A program made the translations under genes and the position numbers. From an uncultured Eubacteriales bacterium (GTDB taxonomy: Bacteria; Bacillota; Clostridia; Oscillospirales; Oscillospiraceae): a stretch of DNA of 36,854 bases. Under the pieces are notes generated by a model that was not told where the DNA came from, searched no databases, and saw nothing but the letters and a program-made list of their open reading frames with translations. The stretch spans positions 1 through 36,854 of the forward strand of contig URNZ01000014.1 of assembly GCA_900549405.1 (NCBI GenBank), read 5' to 3'. Numbering within the stretch: position 1 is the stretch's first letter; each line of letters starts with the position of its first letter. Below are positions 8,671-16,656 of this stretch, one piece after another.

Positions 8671-9843
8671 TCAGTGGTGGAACAGTCTTACGCCCGTAAA
8701 TGCCATGACCATGCCGTATTTGTCGGCGGTGGCGATGACCTGGTCATCCCGGATGGAGCCGCCGGGCTGGACGATGTACTGCACGCCCGATTTATGGGCG
8801 CGCTCCACGTTGTCGCCGAAGGGGAAGAAGGCGTCGGAACCAACGGTCACACCGGACTGCCGGGCGATCCAGGCGGTCTTCTCCTCCTGGGTGAGGACGG
8901 GAGGCTTTTCCGTGAAGATGGTCTGCCACACCCCGTCGGCCAGCACGTCGTCGTGCTCCTGGGAGATATACAGGTCGATGGCGTTGTCCCGGGCAGGGCG
9001 GCGGATGTCGGGCAGGAAGGGCAGGGAGAGGACCTTGGGGTGCTGGCGCAGCCACCAGATGTCCGCCTTGTCCCCGGCCAGACGGGTGCAGTGGATGCGG
9101 CTCTGCTGTCCGGCCCCCACGCCCAGGGTCTGGCCGTTTTTCACGTAGCACACCGAGTTGGACTGGGTATACTTCAGCACGATCTGGGCCAGCAGCATAT
9201 CGTTTTTGGCCTGCTGGGACAGCTCCTTGTGCTCCGTGACGATGTTTTGCAGCAGCTCCTCAGTGATGGCCAGGTCGTTATACCGCTGCTCGAAGGTCAC
9301 GCCGAAGATGGTCCGGCGCTCCACCGGGGCGGGGGTATAGTCCGGGTCGATCTGGACCACGTTATAGCCGCCCTTCTTCTTGGTGCGGAGGATGGCCAGG
9401 GCCTGGTCGGTGTAGCCGGGGGCGATGACGCCGTCAGACACCTCCTCGGCCAGCACCCGGGCGGTGGCCTCGTCGCACACGTCGGACAGGGCGGCCCAGT
9501 CGCCGAAGGAGCACAGCCGGTCAGCCCCACGGGCACGGACATAGGCGCAGGCGATGGGGGACAGGTCCCCCGCCGGGGCGAAGTAAATTTTCCGCTCCAC
9601 GTCAGTCAGGGGCTGGCCCAGGGCGGCCCCGGCGGGGGAGACGTGCTTGAAGGAGGCGGCGGCGGGCAGGCCGGTGGCCTTTTTCAGGGCCCGCACCAGC
9701 TGCCAGGAGTTCAGGGCGTCCATAAAGTTGATGTATCCCGGGCGGCCATTGAGTACCTCCAGGGGCAGCTCCCCCTGGTCCATGGACAGGCGGGCGGGCT
9801 TTTGGTTGGGGTTGCAGCCATATTTCAGTTCCAGTTCCTTCAT
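8671..9843 (-). CDS. purH: AICAR transformylase, free-standing (PurH C-domain type)
   Basis: A 390-residue protein equivalent only to the formyltransferase part of bifunctional PurH. It converts AICAR to FAICAR with 10-formyl-THF. The start MKELELKYGCNPNQKPA, the FKHVSPAGAA catalytic Lys-His segment and the C-terminal GSIRDDQVIATADKYGM are AICAR transformylase hallmarks. The usual ~200-residue N-terminal IMP cyclohydrolase domain is absent. The ATG has GGGAGG upstream, and the preceding gene (16 bases away) is a PurO-type cyclohydrolase, which supplies the missing ring closure. The two-gene pair replaces ordinary PurH. The gene lies downstream of a ZTP riboswitch, and ZMP is its substrate. 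Confidence 0.95.
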   Translation of the reverse strand: MKELELKYGCNPNQKPARLSMDQGELPLEVLNGRPGYINFMDALNSWQLVRALKKATGLPAAASFKHVSPAGAALGQPLTDVERKIYFAPAGDLSPIACAYVRARGADRLCSFGDWAALSDVCDEATARVLAEEVSDGVIAPGYTDQALAILRTKKKGGYNVVQIDPDYTPAPVERRTIFGVTFEQRYNDLAITEELLQNIVTEHKELSQQAKNDMLLAQIVLKYTQSNSVCYVKNGQTLGVGAGQQSRIHCTRLAGDKADIWWLRQHPKVLSLPFLPDIRRPARDNAIDLYISQEHDDVLADGVWQTIFTEKPPVLTQEEKTAWIARQSGVTVGSDAFFPFGDNVERAHKSGVQYIVQPGGSIRDDQVIATADKYGMVMAFTGVRLFHH

Positions 9844-9858
9844 GGTCTGTCCCTCCCG

Positions 9859-10569
9859 TCAGTTATGCTTGTTGATGATGACGCTGTCCCGGCTGCCGGT
9901 GCGGACGTCGATCATGCTCACATAGAGAGAAACTTTATTGTCCTCGTTCAGGCTGGCCCACAGCTTTTTGGCCCATTCCTGGGCAGAGAGCTGGGGAATG
10001 GCCACCCGGCGGGGTTCCCCCTCAAAGGAGGGCAGGGGATTCACGTCCTCCTGATAGGTGTGGATGAAGTGGCCCACCCCGGGGGCGGCGTGGTCATACT
10101 CGAAGAAATAGCGGCAGCAGCAGTCCGGGTCCCCGTCCAGGCTTTTCAGAATGGACAGGTTATAGGTGCAGTCGGGCTTCACCACGCCGGAGATGCGGGG
10201 GGTGAAGTTGGGGCCGTCCGGCTCGAAGGCCCGGGTGTTCAGGGCGTGGCGATAGCAGTGGCCCTGCTGGATGTGGTCCCGGATGGTGTCCGTCTGGTCG
10301 CCGTTGGTGACCACGGTCATGCCGTTGGGCAGAATGCGCACGGGGTGATAGATGATGAGGGAGGGGTCGGTCATCTTGCTCTCGTCAAAGGCCCGGGTGC
10401 GGATGCCGTCCTCAGTCTCCTCGAAGATGCGGTTGCGGCTGTTTTCGCTGCGGCCCATGATGAAATAGGCCACGGCCACTTTATCGTTGTCAGGGGTGCG
10501 GCCCAGGACGATGCCCCGGCCGGGGTAGGTATGCTGGGTGAGATACTGCTCCAGATCCAGCAGCTTCAT
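9859..10569 (-). CDS. purO: IMP cyclohydrolase, PurO family
   Basis: A 236-residue protein that fits the PurO-type IMP cyclohydrolase family, first characterised in methanogenic archaea, which closes FAICAR to IMP. Supporting stretches are the N-terminal TYPGRGIVLG, YFIMGRSENSRNR, the TNGDQTDTIRD segment, and a middle region containing FTPRISGV. The assignment rests on recognition of the family pattern plus context: it directly precedes an AICAR transformylase that lacks the cyclohydrolase domain. The ATG at 10569 is preceded by GGAGG. It is unrelated in fold to the bacterial PurH cyclohydrolase, so this is non-orthologous replacement. It is the first gene after the ZTP riboswitch. Confidence 0.88.
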   Translation of the reverse strand: MKLLDLEQYLTQHTYPGRGIVLGRTPDNDKVAVAYFIMGRSENSRNRIFEETEDGIRTRAFDESKMTDPSLIIYHPVRILPNGMTVVTNGDQTDTIRDHIQQGHCYRHALNTRAFEPDGPNFTPRISGVVKPDCTYNLSILKSLDGDPDCCCRYFFEYDHAAPGVGHFIHTYQEDVNPLPSFEGEPRRVAIPQLSAQEWAKKLWASLNEDNKVSLYVSMIDVRTGSRDSVIINKHN

Positions 10570-10590
10570 TGGTCATTCCTCCAGTTTCAA

Positions 10591-10638
10591 AGAATCAAAC
10601 AGGGCGCACCAACCCCGTGAAGGAGGTTCGGTGCGCCC
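10591..10638 (-). terminator. Terminator-like expression platform of the ZTP riboswitch
   Basis: On the minus strand GGGCGCACC (10638-10630) pairs perfectly with GGTGCGCCC (10610-10602), with an extra AACC/GGTT inner helix. A T-rich but interrupted TGTTTGATTCTTT follows. The first arm overlaps the 3' GGGC of the aptamer, as expected for competing folds. Confidence 0.7.
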
Positions 10639-10705
10639 AGACGGTCGGCAGAATGCACAGGCGATGCTCCCCGTGGTCTGTTCCACTTCCGTCAGTTACA
10701 CCGCG
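10635..10705 (-). promoter_or_regulatory. ZTP (pfl-type) riboswitch aptamer
   Basis: The minus strand between purN and purO carries the conserved blocks of the ZTP/pfl aptamer in order: CTGACGG, a GTGG/CCAC hairpin (10683-10686 with 10673-10676), the near-invariant GGGGAGC directly after it (10672-10666), a variable linker, then CCGACCGTCTGGGC ending at 10635. CGG of the first block pairs with CCG of the last. ZTP/ZMP riboswitches commonly control folate and purine formyl-transfer genes. Here the regulated genes would be purO, the AICAR transformylase and purD. Identification is from memory of the consensus, with no covariance search. Confidence 0.85.
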
Positions 10706-10716
10706 TGTTTGGGTTG

Positions 10717-11352
10717 TTAAAAAGACTTGTCCAGAATGCGGACGGTGCGGCCCTCTACCACCAGGCGGTCCTGGCAGAAGAGGGACACGGCCAGGGGCAG
10801 CAGCTTCCACTCGCACTGCTCCATGATCCGCCGCTGCAATACCTCCGGCGTATCGTCGGGCAGGACCTCCACCGCCTTTTGCAGGACGATGGGTCCCCCG
10901 TCGCACTCCGGGCTAACGAAGTGGACGGTGGCCCCGGACAGCTTGACGCCGTAGGCCAGGGCCTTCTCGTGGACGTGGAGGCCATAGCAGCCCGGTCCGG
11001 CGAAGGAGGGGATCAGGGCGGGGTGGATGTTCAAAATGGCGTTGGGGAAGGCCTGGACCATCTCCTCGGTGAGGATGGTCATAAACCCGGCCAGCACCAC
11101 CAGCTGAATGTCCAGCTCACGGAGCTTGTCCACCAGGGCCACGGTCATGGCCCGGTTGGAGGGATAGTCCTGCCGGGCGAGGACATAGCCGGGGATGCCC
11201 GCCTGTTTGGCCCGCTCCAGGGCATAGGCCTCGGGGGAGGAGGAAATCACGGCGGTGATGGAGCCGTTTACGATCTCCCCCCGGCCCTGGGCGTCGATGA
11301 GGGCCTGGAGATTGGTCCCGCCGCCGGAGACCAGAACGGCGATATGCTTCAT
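10717..11352 (-). CDS. purN: Phosphoribosylglycinamide formyltransferase
   Basis: A 211-residue folate-dependent GAR transformylase (10-formyl-THF donor), the third step of purine synthesis. It has the N-terminal KHIAVLVSGGGTNLQ, the catalytic region FMTILTEEMV..NIHPALIPSF and GATVHFVSPECDGGPI with the essential His/Asp. The ATG at 11352 overlaps the purM TGA by one base (TGATG), so translation is coupled; a GTG one codon earlier is possible. Its stop lies only 12 bases before the ZTP aptamer, so it is outside the switch's control unless by message decay. Confidence 0.97.
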   Translation of the reverse strand: MKHIAVLVSGGGTNLQALIDAQGRGEIVNGSITAVISSSPEAYALERAKQAGIPGYVLARQDYPSNRAMTVALVDKLRELDIQLVVLAGFMTILTEEMVQAFPNAILNIHPALIPSFAGPGCYGLHVHEKALAYGVKLSGATVHFVSPECDGGPIVLQKAVEVLPDDTPEVLQRRIMEQCEWKLLPLAVSLFCQDRLVVEGRTVRILDKSF

Positions 11353-12395
11353 CACACCAGCTCCACGCCGTCTGCCCCGGCGACCACCTCGCCAATGGCA
11401 TAGGCGCTCTCACCGGCGTCAGCCAGGACGGACAGGGCCTGCTGGGCCTGGTCAGCGGGCAGGGCCAGGATCATGCCGATGCCCATGTTAAAGGTGTTGT
11501 ACATGTCCCGCTCGGGGATGTTCCCCTTGTCCTGGATCAGCTGGAAGATGGGCAGCTTGGGGAAGGAGGACAGCTGGATGCGGGCGGTGAGACCGTCGGT
11601 CATCATGCGGGGCACGTTCTCGTAAAAGCCGCCGCCGGTGATGTGGCTGACGGCGTGGATGTCCACCCCGGCCTTCAGCAGGGCCTTGATGGCCTTGACA
11701 TAGATGCGGGTGGGGGTGAGCAGGGTCTCGCCCAGGCTCTTGCCCCCCAGCTGCTCCACGGGGGAGGTGAGGTCGGCGTGCTCCACGTCCAGCACCTTGC
11801 GCACCAGGGAGAAGCCGTTGGAGTGGACGCCGGTGGAGGCCAGACCGATGAGGGCGTCGCCCTGGGCCAGGCGCTTGCCGTCGATGATCTTCTCCTCGTC
11901 CACGATGCCCACGGAGAAACCGGCCACGTCATAGTCGTCATCGGGCATCAGGCCGGGGTGCTCGGCGGTCTCGCCGCCCACCAGGGCACACTCAGACTGG
12001 CGGCAGCCCTCGGTGATGCCGGTGACGATCTCGGCGATGCGGGCGGGGTCGTTCTTGCCGCAGGCGATGTAGTCCAGGAAGAACAGGGGGGCCGCGCCGC
12101 CGCAGATGATGTCGTTGACGCACATGGCCACGCAGTCGATGCCGATGGTGTCGTGCTTGTCCATCAGCTGGGCCAGGCGGAGCTTGGTGCCCACGCCGTC
12201 GGTGCCGGAGACCAGCACGGGCTTTTTCATCCCGGCCACGTCGGGGGCGAACATGCCGCCGAAGCCGCCCAGGGTGCCCATGACGCCGGGGATATAGGTG
12301 GACTCGACCATGGGCTTGATGCGCTCCACCGACTCGTAACCGGCGGTGACGTCCACGCCGGCGGCGGCGTAGGACTCGGAATGGGAGTTCTTCAT
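11352..12395 (-). CDS. purM: Phosphoribosylformylglycinamidine cyclo-ligase
   Basis: A 347-residue AIR synthetase that closes FGAM to AIR with ATP. It has the PurM signatures SGTDGVGTKLRLA, CVNDIICGGAAPLFFLDY, GGETAEHPG and GLASTGVHSNGFSLVRK. The ATG at 12395 has GGAGG 8 bases upstream; seven further upstream codons are excluded for lack of a site. It is transcribed after purF across a 63-base gap holding a perfect 14-bp hairpin, and is coupled to purN by a one-base stop/start overlap. Confidence 0.97.
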   Translation of the reverse strand: MKNSHSESYAAAGVDVTAGYESVERIKPMVESTYIPGVMGTLGGFGGMFAPDVAGMKKPVLVSGTDGVGTKLRLAQLMDKHDTIGIDCVAMCVNDIICGGAAPLFFLDYIACGKNDPARIAEIVTGITEGCRQSECALVGGETAEHPGLMPDDDYDVAGFSVGIVDEEKIIDGKRLAQGDALIGLASTGVHSNGFSLVRKVLDVEHADLTSPVEQLGGKSLGETLLTPTRIYVKAIKALLKAGVDIHAVSHITGGGFYENVPRMMTDGLTARIQLSSFPKLPIFQLIQDKGNIPERDMYNTFNMGIGMILALPADQAQQALSVLADAGESAYAIGEVVAGADGVELV

Positions 12396-12422
12396 GTTGA
12401 AACCTCCAAAAATCATATTAGA

Positions 12423-12453
12423 TGGTTTTCCACCCCAGCGGGGTGGAAAACCA
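12423..12453. other. Hairpin between purF and purM
   Basis: A perfect 14-bp stem with a 3-nt loop (12423-12436 with 12440-12453). No T run follows on the minus strand, so it is more likely a message-processing or stability element than a full terminator. Confidence 0.7.
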
Positions 12454-12458
12454 GAAAA

Positions 12459-13883
12459 TCACTCTTTACCGCTCCAGCAGTAGGTGCAGACCTTGTCCCG
12501 GTCAATGCCGATGGCGTCCAGCAGGCCGTCCAGAGACTGGAAGCCCAGGGAGTCGAAGCCGAACTTTTCGCAGATGGTCTTGAGCATGCACTGGCCCCGC
12601 TGGGTGCTGGCGTCGGCATACTCGTCCAGGTGCTTCTGGCCCTCGTCCCCCTCCAGCTCCTGCACGGTGCGGCGGGCCAGCAGCTCCATCTCGGAGTTGC
12701 TGCTGGAGAAGTTCAGATACTTGCAGCCATACATGATGGGCGGGCAGGCGGAGCGCATGTGGACCTCTTTCGCGCCGCTCTCATACAGAAATTCCACCGT
12801 CTCCCGCAGCTGGGTGCCCCGGACGATGGAATCGTCCACGAACAGCAGCTTTTTGCCCTGGATCAGCTCGGGCACGGGGATCTGCTTCATCTTGGCCACC
12901 TGGTTGCGCACATTCTGATTGGTGGGCATAAAGGACCGGGGCCAGGTGGGGGTGTATTTCACGAAGGGGCGGGCAAAGGGCACATGGCTGGCGTTGGCAT
13001 AGCCGATGGCGTGGGGCAGGCCGGAGTCGGGCACGCCGGCCACATAGTCCAGGTCCTGGGCCACGCCCCGGGCCTTGTCATCCTGGGCCATGCGCTCGCC
13101 GTTGCGATAGCGCATGACCTCTACGTTCACGCCCTCGTAATTGGAGTTGGGGTAGCCGTAGTAGGACCAGAGGAAGGCACAGATCTTCATGTCCTTCCCC
13201 GGCTGGGACAGGGTCTGCCAGCCGTCGGCAGTGACCTTTACGATCTCACGGGGGCCCAGCTCGTGGGAATCCTGATAGCCCAGCTTGTGATAGGCGAAGG
13301 ACTCGAAGGAGACGCAGCAGCCCTCGTCGTTCTTGCCGATGAGCACGGGCAGACGGCCCAGCCGGTCACGGGCGGCAATAATTTCGCCCTTATCGGTGAG
13401 GATGAGCAGGGTGAGGGAGCCCTGGATCATCTCCTGGGCGTGGAGAATGCCGGAGACCAGATCGTCCTTCTGGTTGATAAGGGCGGCGGCCAGCTCGGTG
13501 GCGTTCACCCGGCCGGAGCTCATGGCCATGAACTGGTGGCCGTGGTCGGAGAAATAGGTCTGGATCAGCTCGTCGGCGTTGTTGATGATGCCCACCGTGG
13601 AGATGGCATACAGACCAAGGTGGGACCGCACCAGCAGGGGCTGGGGGTCGGTGTCACTGATGCAGCCGATACCGGCGCAGCCGTGAAAGTCGGCCAGGTC
13701 CCGCTCGAACTTGGTGCGGAAGGGGGTGTTTTCGATGTTGTGGATCTGGCGCTGAAAGCCGTCCTTCTCATCGAACATGATCATGCCGCCCCGGCGGGTG
13801 CCCAGGTGGGAGTGGTAGTCCACTCCGAAGAAAATATCAAGGGTGACATCCCGCTGAGAGACGGCCCCAAAAAAACCTCCCAT
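12459..13883 (-). CDS. purF: Amidophosphoribosyltransferase-like protein lacking the catalytic Cys
   Basis: A 474-residue PurF homologue, the first committed step of purine synthesis (PRPP to phosphoribosylamine). The phosphoribosyltransferase half is intact: the PRPP loop VDDSIVRGTQ, VPDSGLPHAIGYA, and a C-terminal CTYCWSG resembling the Fe-S ligand region of Bacillus-type PurF. The glutaminase half is eroded. The protein starts MGGFFGAVS, where ordinary PurF exposes Cys1 in CGxxG. The RYST and NGN glutamine-site motifs read CISD and INN. The start is secure (GGAGGT before the ATG, no upstream in-frame Cys). It may use free ammonia or a partner glutaminase, or a second PurF may exist elsewhere. 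Similar Cys-less forms are, from memory, also found in Bacteroidetes. It sits between purC and purM with 22-base spacing. Confidence 0.9.
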   Translation of the reverse strand: MGGFFGAVSQRDVTLDIFFGVDYHSHLGTRRGGMIMFDEKDGFQRQIHNIENTPFRTKFERDLADFHGCAGIGCISDTDPQPLLVRSHLGLYAISTVGIINNADELIQTYFSDHGHQFMAMSSGRVNATELAAALINQKDDLVSGILHAQEMIQGSLTLLILTDKGEIIAARDRLGRLPVLIGKNDEGCCVSFESFAYHKLGYQDSHELGPREIVKVTADGWQTLSQPGKDMKICAFLWSYYGYPNSNYEGVNVEVMRYRNGERMAQDDKARGVAQDLDYVAGVPDSGLPHAIGYANASHVPFARPFVKYTPTWPRSFMPTNQNVRNQVAKMKQIPVPELIQGKKLLFVDDSIVRGTQLRETVEFLYESGAKEVHMRSACPPIMYGCKYLNFSSSNSEMELLARRTVQELEGDEGQKHLDEYADASTQRGQCMLKTICEKFGFDSLGFQSLDGLLDAIGIDRDKVCTYCWSGKE

Positions 13884-13905
13884 GTGTTACCTCCCTGCTG
13901 TCGGC

Positions 13906-14616
13906 TTACTTGCCCATCAGACGGCGGGCCATCTCCTGATAAGCGCCCTCCACGTTGCCCAGGTCCCGGCGGAAGCGGTCCTTGTCCAGCTTCTCGCCGG
14001 TCTTGGCGTCCCAGAAGCGGCAGGTGTCGGGGCTGATCTCGTCGGCCAGGACGATGGTGCCGTCGGCGGTCTTGCCGAACTCTAGCTTAAAGTCCACCAG
14101 GGTGACGCCGCACTCCAGCAGGGTCTTCTTCAGGAAGTCGTTGACCTGGAAGGCATACTTCTTGATCAGGGCGATCTCGTCCCAGGTGGCCAGCTTCAGG
14201 GCCACGGCGTGATAGCTGTTGATCAGGGGGTCGTGCAGGTCGTCGTTCTTATAGGAGAACTCGATGGTGGGCTCGGCGAACACGATGCCCTCCTTCACGC
14301 CATAGTTGCTGGCAAAGTGACCGGCGGAGATGTTGCGCACGATGACCTCCAGGGGGACGATGGAGACCTTCTTCACGGCGGTCTCACGCTCGCTCAGCTC
14401 CTGGACAAAGTGGGTGGGTACGCCGGCCTTCTCCAGCTGCTGCATCAGGAAGTTGGTCATCTGGTTGTTGATGGCGCCCTTGCCGGTGATGGTGCCCTTC
14501 TTCAGGCCGTCAAAAGCGGTGGCGTCGTCCTTATAGGAGACGATGACCACGTTGGGGTCCTCGGTGGAATAGACCTTCTTGGCCTTGCCCTCGTACAGCT
14601 GCTCGACTTTCTTCAT
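13906..14616 (-). CDS. purC: SAICAR synthetase
   Basis: A 236-residue enzyme that ligates aspartate to CAIR with ATP. Visible motifs are [10 protein letters not shown] at the N-terminus, [16 protein letters not shown], the central [12 protein letters not shown], and [23 protein letters not shown]. The ATG at 14616 is chosen because AAGGA stands 8 bases before it; the in-frame ATG three codons upstream lies inside that site. It follows purE after about 90 bases that contain one GTAGGGGC palindrome. Confidence 0.97.
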
Positions 14617-14670
14617 GTGAAACATCCTTTCCCTATTTATATCTCTTGATATCGCATTGATGTCTATTCG

Positions 14671-14706: not shown

Positions 14707-15198
14707 TTAGTCCAGCTCCGCCTGGAGCTTGGCCTCTTTCTCGGCGATCTGCCGGGCCATCTTCTCCCGGGCGGCATCCAGCTTGGCAGCCAGGTCGTCG
14801 TCGGCCACGGCCAGGATCTGGGCGGCCAGCACGGCGGCGTTCTTGGCCCCGTTCAGGGCCACGGTGGCCACGGGGATGCCGCTGGGCATCTGCACGGTGG
14901 CCAGCAGGGCGTCCAGTCCGTCCATAGCGCCCCCCTTCATGGGGATGCCGATAACGGGCAGGGTGGAGTTCCCGGCAAAGGCCCCGGCCAGGTGGGCGGC
15001 CATACCCGCCGCACAGATCATGACACCAAAGCCATTGGCGCGGGCGGAGCGGGCAAACTCCGCCGCCTGGGCGGGGGTGCGGTGGGCGCTGAGAATGTGG
15101 GCCTCATAGGGGATGCCGAACTCCTTTAACTGGGCGCAGGCCCCCTTGACCACGGGCCAATCGGAGTCAGAGCCCATAATGACGGCGACTTTTTTCAT
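14707..15198 (-). CDS. purE: N5-carboxyaminoimidazole ribonucleotide mutase
   Basis: A 163-residue class I PurE that interconverts N5-CAIR and CAIR. It carries the family start VAVIMGSDSDWPV, then SAHRTPAQAAEFA, the AGMAAHLAGAFAG loop and the PVIGIPMKGGAMDGLDALLATVQMP region. AAAGGAGAG precedes the ATG. It is the first enzyme gene of the operon. No purK is present in the window. Transcription appears to start upstream of a 27-codon ORF and must pass an intrinsic terminator 43 bases before this ATG. Confidence 0.96.
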   Translation of the reverse strand: MKKVAVIMGSDSDWPVVKGACAQLKEFGIPYEAHILSAHRTPAQAAEFARSARANGFGVMICAAGMAAHLAGAFAGNSTLPVIGIPMKGGAMDGLDALLATVQMPSGIPVATVALNGAKNAAVLAAQILAVADDDLAAKLDAAREKMARQIAEKEAKLQAELD

Positions 15199-15241
15199 GT
15201 GATCTCTCCTTTCAACTGGCTCCCCCGGTTTGAAACGGGAG

Positions 15242-15279
15242 AAAAAGCGTCAGGCTGCCTGGGCACAGACAGCCTGACG
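15242..15279 (-). terminator. Intrinsic terminator (attenuator candidate) in the pur leader
   Basis: Minus-strand CGTCAGGCTG (15279-15270) pairs perfectly with CAGCCTGACG (15257-15248), 12-nt loop, followed by CTTTTTC. It lies between the leader small ORF and purE, with no second promoter visible before purE. Confidence 0.88.
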
Positions 15280-15287
15280 GAGCGTGT

Positions 15288-15371
15288 TCAATGAGTTTTG
15301 GGCATGTTGCGTCCCTGCCGGTGGGTGCAGTGGTGACACAGAAACACGAAAGAGCGGAAACGGTGGGCCAT
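15288..15371 (-). CDS. 27-residue leader small ORF upstream of the pur operon
   Basis: ATG at 15371 to TGA at 15288 encodes a basic peptide, MAHRFRSFVFLCHHCTHRQG followed by RNMPKTH, with a CHHC cluster, five His and four Arg. AAGGAGG stands 8 bases before this ATG, one of the best ribosome binding sites in the window; an ATG two codons and one base earlier is out of frame and too close to it. A sigma-70-type promoter lies 41 bases upstream of the ATG and a strong terminator starts 9 bases after the stop. It may be a regulatory leader peptide for purE and downstream genes, or an independent small protein. I do not recognise it. Confidence 0.65.
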   Translation of the reverse strand: MAHRFRSFVFLCHHCTHRQGRNMPKTH

Positions 15372-15411
15372 TGCGCATACCTCCTTCACAGAAACGGCAA
15401 CTTAGGTTCTT

Positions 15412-15440
15412 ATTTTAACGAAAATTGACGAACTTTGCAA
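15412..15440 (-). promoter_or_regulatory. Promoter of the pur leader/operon
   Basis: Minus-strand TTGCAA (15435-15440), a 17-base spacer and TAAAAT (15412-15417). Confidence 0.78.
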
Positions 15441-15564
15441 GGGATATCGGCGATTTTGTCGCCTTGCACAAGAAGAAAGAGCCATGATGGGAGATTGTTG
15501 TAGTTCAACATGGAAAGTGGTCCGCGGCTATACCAAAAGGGTGATAGGAGCGGCTTTGTCCAGG

Positions 15565-16656
15565 CTATAGTAGTCCCGCCGTGGTGAGGATGTTCACCAC
15601 CTGGGTACAGCGCAGGGGCCAGGAGGCCGCAGCGGCGTGACTGCGGCGGCGCTGGGCGGCGAAGTTGGGCGGCTCGTCCAGGGCGTGGCGGCAGAGGGTG
15701 AGGAACTCCTGATCGGAGTGGGCCCCGTATACCACGTCGGGCAGGGGCTCGATCTGGTCGGGCCACAGCATAGACACCACGGGCCGCCCGGTGGCCAGAT
15801 ACTCCAGCATCCGGCAGGAGACCAGGTCGTCACAGGTGCGGTCATCCCGAAGAAAGTCCATGAGGATATTGCACCGATAGAGCCAGTCGGGTACCTGGGC
15901 CATGGGGCAGCCCCCGGGCAGGATGACGTTGGGCAGCCGCCGCAGCCGGGGCAGGAGGGGATTGCCCTCCCCCTGGGGCCCCAGCAGGACAAAGGTCCAC
16001 CGGGGCATGGTCCGGGCGGTATAGAGCAGGGGGCCTAAGTCCAGCTCGGGCCGGATGGTCCCCGCCCAGCCCAGCACCGGCCCCGCCGTTTGGGGCAGGG
16101 GATCATAGGAGAGGTCGGAGGGGCGGGAGAACAGGGGGAAATTTACCCCGTTTGGCAGCAGGGCCACGTTGGCGCTGCAGGGAGTCAGCCGGTCGGCCAG
16201 CAGGGGAGAGGCGGCAAAGACCACGTCGGCCGCCCCGGCCAGACAGCCCTCCCAGTCCGGGGGCAGGTCGTCCCACTCCCGGTCACAGTCGTAGACCAGG
16301 CCGCCATAGTCCAGCAGGTCCAGCAGATGGACCTGTCGGGGGTCGGTGGTCCACAGCAGGGGCTCCCGAAAGCGGTGGCGGGCGGCCACCCCCTGGATGA
16401 ACCGGCTCACCTTCCGCTGCCCGGGGCGGAGCAGGCGGCCATAGGCCTCCTCCACCGGGACCCAGGTGGGGGGCAGGGTATAGGCGGTGATGTTGGGCCG
16501 GACCTTTTTGCCCTTTTTTAAATAGGAGCGGTCCAGCCGCCCGGCGGCGGGGGAGAAATACAGCACCTGCGTGTCCCGCAGGCGGGAGAGCAGCTGCTGG
16601 GTCCGCCCGGGGGAGGAGGACCAGGGCTGCCCGGCCAGACAGATGATCTGCTTCAT
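15565..16656 (-). CDS. Glycosyltransferase, GT-B fold (TuaH-like)
   Basis: A 363-residue cytoplasmic protein without membrane segments that looks like a GT-B glycosyltransferase of the GT1/GT4 type. It has an N-terminal half with VYDCDREWDDLP and LADRLTPCSANVALLPNGVNF, then the C-terminal donor domain beginning PVLGWAGTIRPELD and ending with RMLEYLATGRPVVS, the typical nucleotide-sugar E-x7-E-like region. The combination recalls TuaH and similar exopolysaccharide or teichuronic-acid enzymes. Donor and acceptor cannot be read from sequence. The ATG has AAGGAGG upstream. It has no glycan-gene neighbours, so its pathway is open. No clear terminator follows it before the pur promoter. Confidence 0.78.
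   Translation of the reverse strand: MKQIICLAGQPWSSSPGRTQQLLSRLRDTQVLYFSPAAGRLDRSYLKKGKKVRPNITAYTLPPTWVPVEEAYGRLLRPGQRKVSRFIQGVAARHRFREPLLWTTDPRQVHLLDLLDYGGLVYDCDREWDDLPPDWEGCLAGAADVVFAASPLLADRLTPCSANVALLPNGVNFPLFSRPSDLSYDPLPQTAGPVLGWAGTIRPELDLGPLLYTARTMPRWTFVLLGPQGEGNPLLPRLRRLPNVILPGGCPMAQVPDWLYRCNILMDFLRDDRTCDDLVSCRMLEYLATGRPVVSMLWPDQIEPLPDVVYGAHSDQEFLTLCRHALDEPPNFAAQRRRSHAAAASWPLRCTQVVNILTTAGLL

Follow-up and report, generated by a model that had tools for sequence, protein, structure and literature searches.

Attenuators of the trp and his type, which respond to amino acids, combine a leader ORF, a pause and a terminator. In the pyrBI operon of E. coli the leader ORF, pyrL, adjoins or overlaps an intrinsic terminator, polymerase pausing is part of the process, the trailing ribosome prevents the hairpin and a nucleotide serves as the signal; the pausing template is described as requiring U at 49% of its positions, and in the reconstituted pyrL system a trailing ribosome prevented both pausing and termination (PMC10135430). 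In the Firmicute B. subtilis the leader of tlrB (yxjB) also pauses polymerase for leader translation, and the ribosome then interferes with the terminator. There, the pause depends on NusG and lies between leader and gene, the signal is an antibiotic-dependent arrest motif, and a second, translational layer is present (PMC6851288). The distance between ribosome and terminator is known to matter in E. coli: the ribosome is reported to suppress a terminator almost completely when the stop codon lies 5 nt ahead of it, but not when more than 27 nt separate the two (PMC4824070). Shifting the stop codon closer to the terminator, from 28 nt to 5 nt, lowered terminator efficiency from about 90% to below 10% (PMC4824070). 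According to the same source, terminators inside ORFs within the first 100 bp are normally not suppressed as the ribosome has not yet caught up, and leader-peptide pausing as in pyrBI is given as a way round this problem (PMC4824070). In the open-licence literature we found no purine operon described as having an attenuator based on a leader peptide or on a pause.

We analysed the region upstream of purE in the window, i.e. the whole 36,854-nt stretch of contig from an uncultured Eubacteriales bacterium of the Oscillospiraceae, and in its relatives. In the sequences compared, a leader gene, a stop hairpin and a probable pause signal precede the purine genes in many gut Oscillospiraceae. As in pyrBI, the leader ORF adjoins or overlaps an intrinsic terminator and polymerase pausing is predicted; a trailing ribosome that prevents the hairpin and a nucleotide signal would complete the likeness. 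Unlike pyrL with its U-dependent template, the purE leader contains one consensus pause motif with G at +1, and it differs further in its purine operon and its Oscillospiraceae hosts; homology with pyrBI is not claimed. From start codon to motif the leaders of 43 loci are poor in purines (A+G 35.5% vs 49.2% in purE), and because a template rich in the sensed nucleotide before the terminator is thus absent, and the leader is known here from sequence alone, we do not class it as a pyrBI member. Unlike the trp/his type, it has no codon run for one amino acid, and no alternative antiterminator hairpin was found. Purine genes are also controlled by the ZMP/ZTP riboswitch, which occurs inside the window operon and, at two other loci, before purE; in contrast to it, the purE leader contains no such aptamer according to Rfam.

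Leader architecture and its occurrence before purE

The initial annotation had proposed a promoter, a strong ribosome binding site, a 27-codon ORF and a terminator before purE, and all of these were confirmed by the sequence and a consensus scan (Table 1). The scan of positions 14900-15700 gave a single promoter-like site, compared with a mean of 0.2 in shuffles. The stretch from the terminator to purE has no such site, in line with the earlier statement that a second promoter is missing. The terminator with its CTTTTTC was recovered as well, with a stem of 14 pairs instead of the 10 bp originally assigned. Among the downstream genes, the purC, purM, purN and PRK07106 calls lie above their cut-offs, and the purF and PurO models below theirs. 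No known purine riboswitch motif had been seen in the leader; likewise, Rfam at gathering thresholds had no match there, and its sole match in the window was the ZMP/ZTP riboswitch at 10709-10628.

Table 1. Features of the purE leader and the operon behind it (window coordinates).
Feature	Position	Strand	Basis or remark
Operator-like sequence TTGTGCAAGGCGACAAAATC	15452..15471	-	Upstream of -35 box; 15/20 matches to TTGTRYAAGCNTACGAAAAT
Promoter-like site TTGCAA-17-TAAAAT	15412..15440	-	Consensus scan, 9/12 matches
Shine-Dalgarno (SD) AGGAGG of leader ORF	15380..15385	-	Sequence
Leader ORF, 27 codons and stop, MAHRFRSFVFLCHHCTHRQGRNMPKTH	15288..15371	-	Sequence; SD-preceded counterparts in relatives
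Conserved nucleotide motif GGACGCAACATGCCCAAA (consensus GGCNYCNNTNYGYCCAAA)	15297..15314	-	Proposed RNA polymerase pause
Proposed pause	RNA 3′ end 15304, incoming G 15303	-	Predicted from pause consensus
Intrinsic terminator stem-loop, 14 pairs	15248..15279	-	Scan; compensatory changes among relatives
U-rich terminator tail	15239..15247	-	Sequence; CTTTTTC after stem
purE, first gene of controlled operon	14707..15198	-	TIGR01162, E 8.3e-57
Downstream purine genes: purC, purF relative, purM, purN, PurO-like IMP cyclohydrolase, AICAR formyltransferase	8671..14625	-	
ZMP/ZTP riboswitch inside operon	10628..10709	-	Rfam; between purN and PurO-like gene
PurO-like IMP cyclohydrolase	9859..10569	-	NCBIfam models named for archaea, below cut-offs

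Taken alone, the window terminator is not unusual, since shuffles of the region contain 0.9 such terminators on average. The isolated leader is also barely more stable than shuffled sequences (fold z -1.72; 10 of 200 shuffles equal it). The case for its being more than chance comes from conservation.

Looking for an ORF plus terminator upstream of purE in relatives, as the initial annotation had suggested, we selected 80 loci by PurE similarity alone, which were the best 80 of at least 456 confirmed relatives in named genomes. At 51 of the 80 loci, as curated by eye and script, purE is preceded by a terminator and, ahead of it, by an ORF that has an SD and shares the C-terminal pattern. Many of the remaining 29 have a different region upstream of purE, and at locus L070 this region is cut off by the contig end. 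A ZTP riboswitch lies directly before purE in place of the leader ORF at L058 (5832-5915) and L060 (5843-5926). Locus L115 has a plain leader before purE without a recognisable motif.

For a wider search, a covariance model (R1) comprised 42 leaders, i.e. 41 relatives and the window. It scores the window leader at 50.9 bits, a partly circular value with the window being in the model. When R1 was run on 300 genomes of the family, the 30 best matches all adjoined PurE, although some were already in the model. In 12 of these 30 the PurE is only 56-61% identical to that of the window, which places them well outside the starting set. Eight of the next 20 places had PurE and 12 were ordinary terminators. 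Of 64 genomes from a related genus, 61 had a strong match, and PurE lay next to it in all 60 that were fetched. The order-level R1 sample of 394 genomes resulted in 26 places, 18 with PurE (including one antisense image of another) and 8 plain terminators, and the class-level sample of 391 genomes, searched with model R2, in 2 matches, both in the family already known. With strict filters, these order-level R1 and class-level R2 samples contained nothing new before purE outside the family. Among the matches examined the element stands only before purine genes. The purE leader is real, conserved and purine-specific.

Two further observations concern the surroundings and the variants of the leader. 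The sequence TTGTGCAAGGCGACAAAATC is a candidate transcription factor site: the operator-like TTGTRYAAGCNTACGAAAAT is matched at 16 or more of 20 positions in 38 of 43 leaders, whereas shuffles average 11.4 with a maximum of 15, although this score is partly circular because these very sequences had served to derive the consensus by eye. Three loci (L062, L063, L072; Oscillospiraceae, Fournierella, Faecalibacterium) have variant purE leaders with GGNNYCCGTGTA. Their terminator is farther downstream, 67, 67 and 46 nt from the motif, and they encode GTRVS, GIRVS or GLRVT, with +1 being A, not G.

A conserved nucleotide motif within the leader ORF

Six near-identical leaders (L013, L018, L019, L022, L026, L028) were dropped from 52, and across the 46 deduplicated leaders the relatives keep an SD-preceded ORF of 20-39 codons at this place. 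The N-terminal part of the peptide diverges freely. The conserved stretch is the 3′ end of the ORF, 18 nt with the consensus GGCNYCNNTNYGYCCAAA, in codons GGC NYC NNT NYG YCC AAA. The motif register was set by hand for L002, L012, L064, L007 and about twenty others.

In a frame-independent test on 28 leaders (30 less 2 without a start), the ORF with the best SD kept a common frame over the conserved stretch in 25. The same frame was kept over this stretch in 56 of the 59 distinct leaders of the genus set, from which two duplicates had been removed. The peptide frame, on whose conservation the initial annotation had made its proposal depend, is therefore maintained among relatives. In L002 the motif GGGGTCTTTGCG is complete, yet the frame of the SD-preceded ORF across it is a different one; L200 is a possible second case, where the usual frame would be regained from a weaker TTG start. 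Since the frame is otherwise kept, our reading is that the ORF and the position of its stop codon are also under selection.

We compared the constraint at the three codon positions after leaving out L062, L063 and L072, which have another spacing (46 reduced to 43 leaders; alignment A1, with 42 rows, leaves out L053 in addition). Mean entropies for motif codons 1-5 are 1.28, 1.16 and 0.71 bits at the first, second and third position, the third being the lowest, and 1.78, 1.80 and 1.65 bits for the N-terminal codons. The third base was T at motif codon 2 in 39 of 43 leaders vs 7.5 expected from local codon usage (z 13.1), G at codon 3 in 40 of 42 vs 12.1 expected (z 10.8) and A at codon 5 in 33 of 43 vs 7.3 expected (z 11.0). 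At ten control codons the values are mostly smaller but still raised, z reaching 6.1-7.7 for T at codons -2, -3 and -8 and for A at codon -6, in keeping with a T-rich leader. The encoded residues vary, codon 2 being N, I, R, F, H, S and others. Judged from these aligned sequences, the motif is constrained as nucleic acid, its third positions being fixed against codon usage while the residues are variable. This nucleotide-level, pause-like motif inside the ORF was missed in the initial annotation, whose reading is otherwise partly supported.

Beyond purE the motif occurs at chance. The 64 genus genomes contain 53 exact copies of GGYNYCNNTNYGYCCAAA, 26 at purE matches and 27 elsewhere, and a reversed control gave 25.

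The motif resembles the elemental pause signal of RNA polymerase. E. coli pause elements are described as G-10 with TGC-1G+1 (PMC4457086), and the consensus is also given as -10G with -1Y and +1G (PMC10268239). With motif base 11 taken as the RNA 3′ end, and with an E. coli consensus applied to Oscillospiraceae hosts, 62 leaders (without L002, for its register, and L115) contain G-10 in 61, Y-1 in 62 and G+1 in 60 cases, the other two having A; further positions are G-11 in 57, T-3 in 53 and G-2 in 39. In the genus set G-10, Y-1 and G+1 are each present in 59 of 59 distinct leaders and T-3 in 50. Both sets of counts are partly circular because the search models include the motif; the codon test is free of that circularity for third positions. 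NusG-dependent pausing in B. subtilis follows a different, T-rich signal. NusG is described as acting through an ntDNA motif (PMC10268239).

A six-point pause score of at least 5 was reached at the motif by 43 of 46 leaders and at 1.8% of the remaining leader positions; in 36 of 46 no other site scores higher than the motif. The sequence of the consensus elemental pause (G-10, Y-1 and G+1 with T-3 and G-2) is thus found across the leaders, and the window has a weaker copy. Here GGACGCAACATG scores 4 of 6, keeping G-11, G-10, Y-1 and G+1 without T-3 and G-2, and another site in the window leader outscores it with 5. By its sequence, the motif is a probable RNA polymerase pause signal inside the ORF.

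Spacing of the parts and the proposed mechanism

The motif lies 33-39 nt from the stem in 47 of 57 leaders and in 54 of 59 genus leaders. From start codon to pause the distance is 44-68 nt in 45 of 46 leaders (107 nt in the exception), which would leave a ribosome room to load. All 45 leaders counted, L020 being excluded, have their stop codon either beyond the stem or at most 11 nt ahead of it, and in all 59 genus leaders this distance is at most 14 nt. As in pyrBI, an ORF with a ribosome binding site therefore ends at or in an intrinsic terminator. The terminator stem shows compensatory changes at 6 of 13 predicted pairs across relatives.

Going by these sequence features, we consider it rather probable that the leader is a pause-synchronised attenuator that depends on ribosome coupling, with the working principle of E. 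coli pyrBI applied to purines. Polymerase would start at the promoter, transcribe the leader ORF and pause at the consensus signal embedded there, which lies about 44-68 nt downstream of the start codon and a short way ahead of the terminator. This pause would let a ribosome load on the strong binding site and close up behind polymerase. Once polymerase resumes, the trailing ribosome would reach the stop codon at or next to the terminator and cover its 5′ arm, so that the hairpin is blocked and the operon is read. If polymerase left early, or no ribosome followed, the hairpin would form and transcription would end before purE. The parts of this scheme, their order and spacing, the nucleotide-level constraint, the pause-consensus match and the restriction to purE can be read in the compared sequences; we infer an actual pause of polymerase at the motif, relief of termination by the ribosome and timing by GTP. 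A translated leader ORF and an attenuator-like terminator behind one promoter are conserved before purE, and of the options offered by the initial annotation ribosome movement is the likely decider.

GTP is our tentative choice for the signal that sets the pause timing. As escape from the pause needs GTP, falling GTP would be expected to lengthen the pause and raise purine synthesis, in the way that UTP acts on pyrBI. In vitro, bypass of a consensus pause by E. coli polymerase is reported as about 22% at 100 µM and about 7% at 10 µM GTP (PMC6336406), and this drop makes GTP sensing possible. GTP control cannot be separated from a generic pause, however, because G+1 belongs to the consensus anyway. 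With rather less than even confidence, we propose that the purine operon may be GTP-controlled without a dedicated sensor, GTP-dependent pause escape deciding whether the ribosome catches up before the terminator. The leader would then, again tentatively, play for purines in Gram-positive gut bacteria the part that pyrBI plays in E. coli, with a pause signal carried by the third codon positions of a disposable leader ORF.

The composition of the leader was also recorded. From start codon to motif, T makes up 33% at the 43 loci vs 15% in purE, and the T-rich, purine-poor leader may bear on Rho or on the pause. In species with runaway transcription, Rho is described as readily terminating purine-poor transcripts (PMC13323073); thus, Rho may take part.

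Alternative readings and significance

The main rival to GTP uses the same parts with another signal. Here the pause merely synchronises and translation itself is sensed, through free ribosomes, initiation, charged tRNA or inhibitors, so that purine synthesis would follow translation capacity, not GTP. It fits every structural fact equally, and the tlrB leader of B. subtilis, where a pause allows leader translation and the ribosome decides termination, is a precedent (PMC6851288). Against it, the element stands only before purine genes among the matches examined. In addition, no single amino acid dominates the 1130 leader residues (R 10.1%, F 9.5%, S 9.4%), which makes a specific tRNA signal unlikely; with R the highest residue, an enrichment of the trp/his type is absent. 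We regard a translation-capacity signal as somewhat unlikely.

Several conserved bases of the motif, C-9, C-6, Y+2, C+3, C+4 and A+5, are not required by the pause consensus, and something more may therefore be read. The 18-nt motif could recruit a sequence-specific factor, either of the NusG/RfaH type at an ops-like pause or a purine-responsive RNA-binding protein, that prevents or promotes termination. The RfaH ops site is given as an exemplar of the consensus pause (PMC5995543). Recruitment of a factor leaves unexplained, however, why the SD, the ORF and a stop codon at the hairpin are conserved, and we consider it unlikely.

The C-terminal pattern G-x-x-[A/L/V/P]-[S/P]-[K/N] was at first read as a SecM-like arrest peptide, in which a nascent chain stalls the ribosome and the stall controls the terminator. 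Gly is encoded at the first motif codon in 43 of 46 leaders, a single frame over the motif is shared by 56 of 59 genus leaders, and some relatives encode GIRAPS or GIRVSA, similar to the GIRAGP of SecM. Yet the residues vary where third bases are fixed, and L002, and perhaps L200 (its weaker TTG start aside), keeps the nucleotides in another frame. For a SecM-type leader the peptide and not the nucleotides should be conserved, and here the third codon positions are the conserved ones. This reading was demoted since the codon-position counts favour nucleotides, and we judge it distinctly improbable. A conserved leader 'peptide' may owe its conservation to nucleotides, which is a warning for the interpretation of such ORFs.

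Ligand-dependent folding, as in a riboswitch, was the other control mode named in the initial annotation, and the ZTP riboswitches directly before purE in L058 and L060 would give it a model. Rfam, which covers described families only, has no match in the leader, and RNAalifold on 42 leaders gave the terminator and a weak 3-pair helix and nothing else, so no conserved aptamer structure was seen. No helix between motif and terminator that could act as an antiterminator was found either, but this is weak evidence because the script also failed to recover the terminator itself. Folding of this kind is very improbable.

That the ORF encodes a small functional protein of its own, with a CHHC metal site, as suggested by the CHHC cluster in the window, is barely credible and was dropped: CHHC is present in 1 of 46 leaders, the coding pattern of the window ORF in 0 of 10 relatives' genomes, and the N-terminal part is divergent, so neither the cluster nor the His content stands as a functional feature.

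If pause-synchronised attenuation is true, the purE leader would contain a natural, phylogenetically deep pause signal under measurable selection inside a coding sequence. It would also be a test case for pause-synchronised ribosome and polymerase where polymerase may outrun the ribosome. Bacteria would also have a further way to sense purine nucleotides, without a riboswitch, repressor or binding protein.
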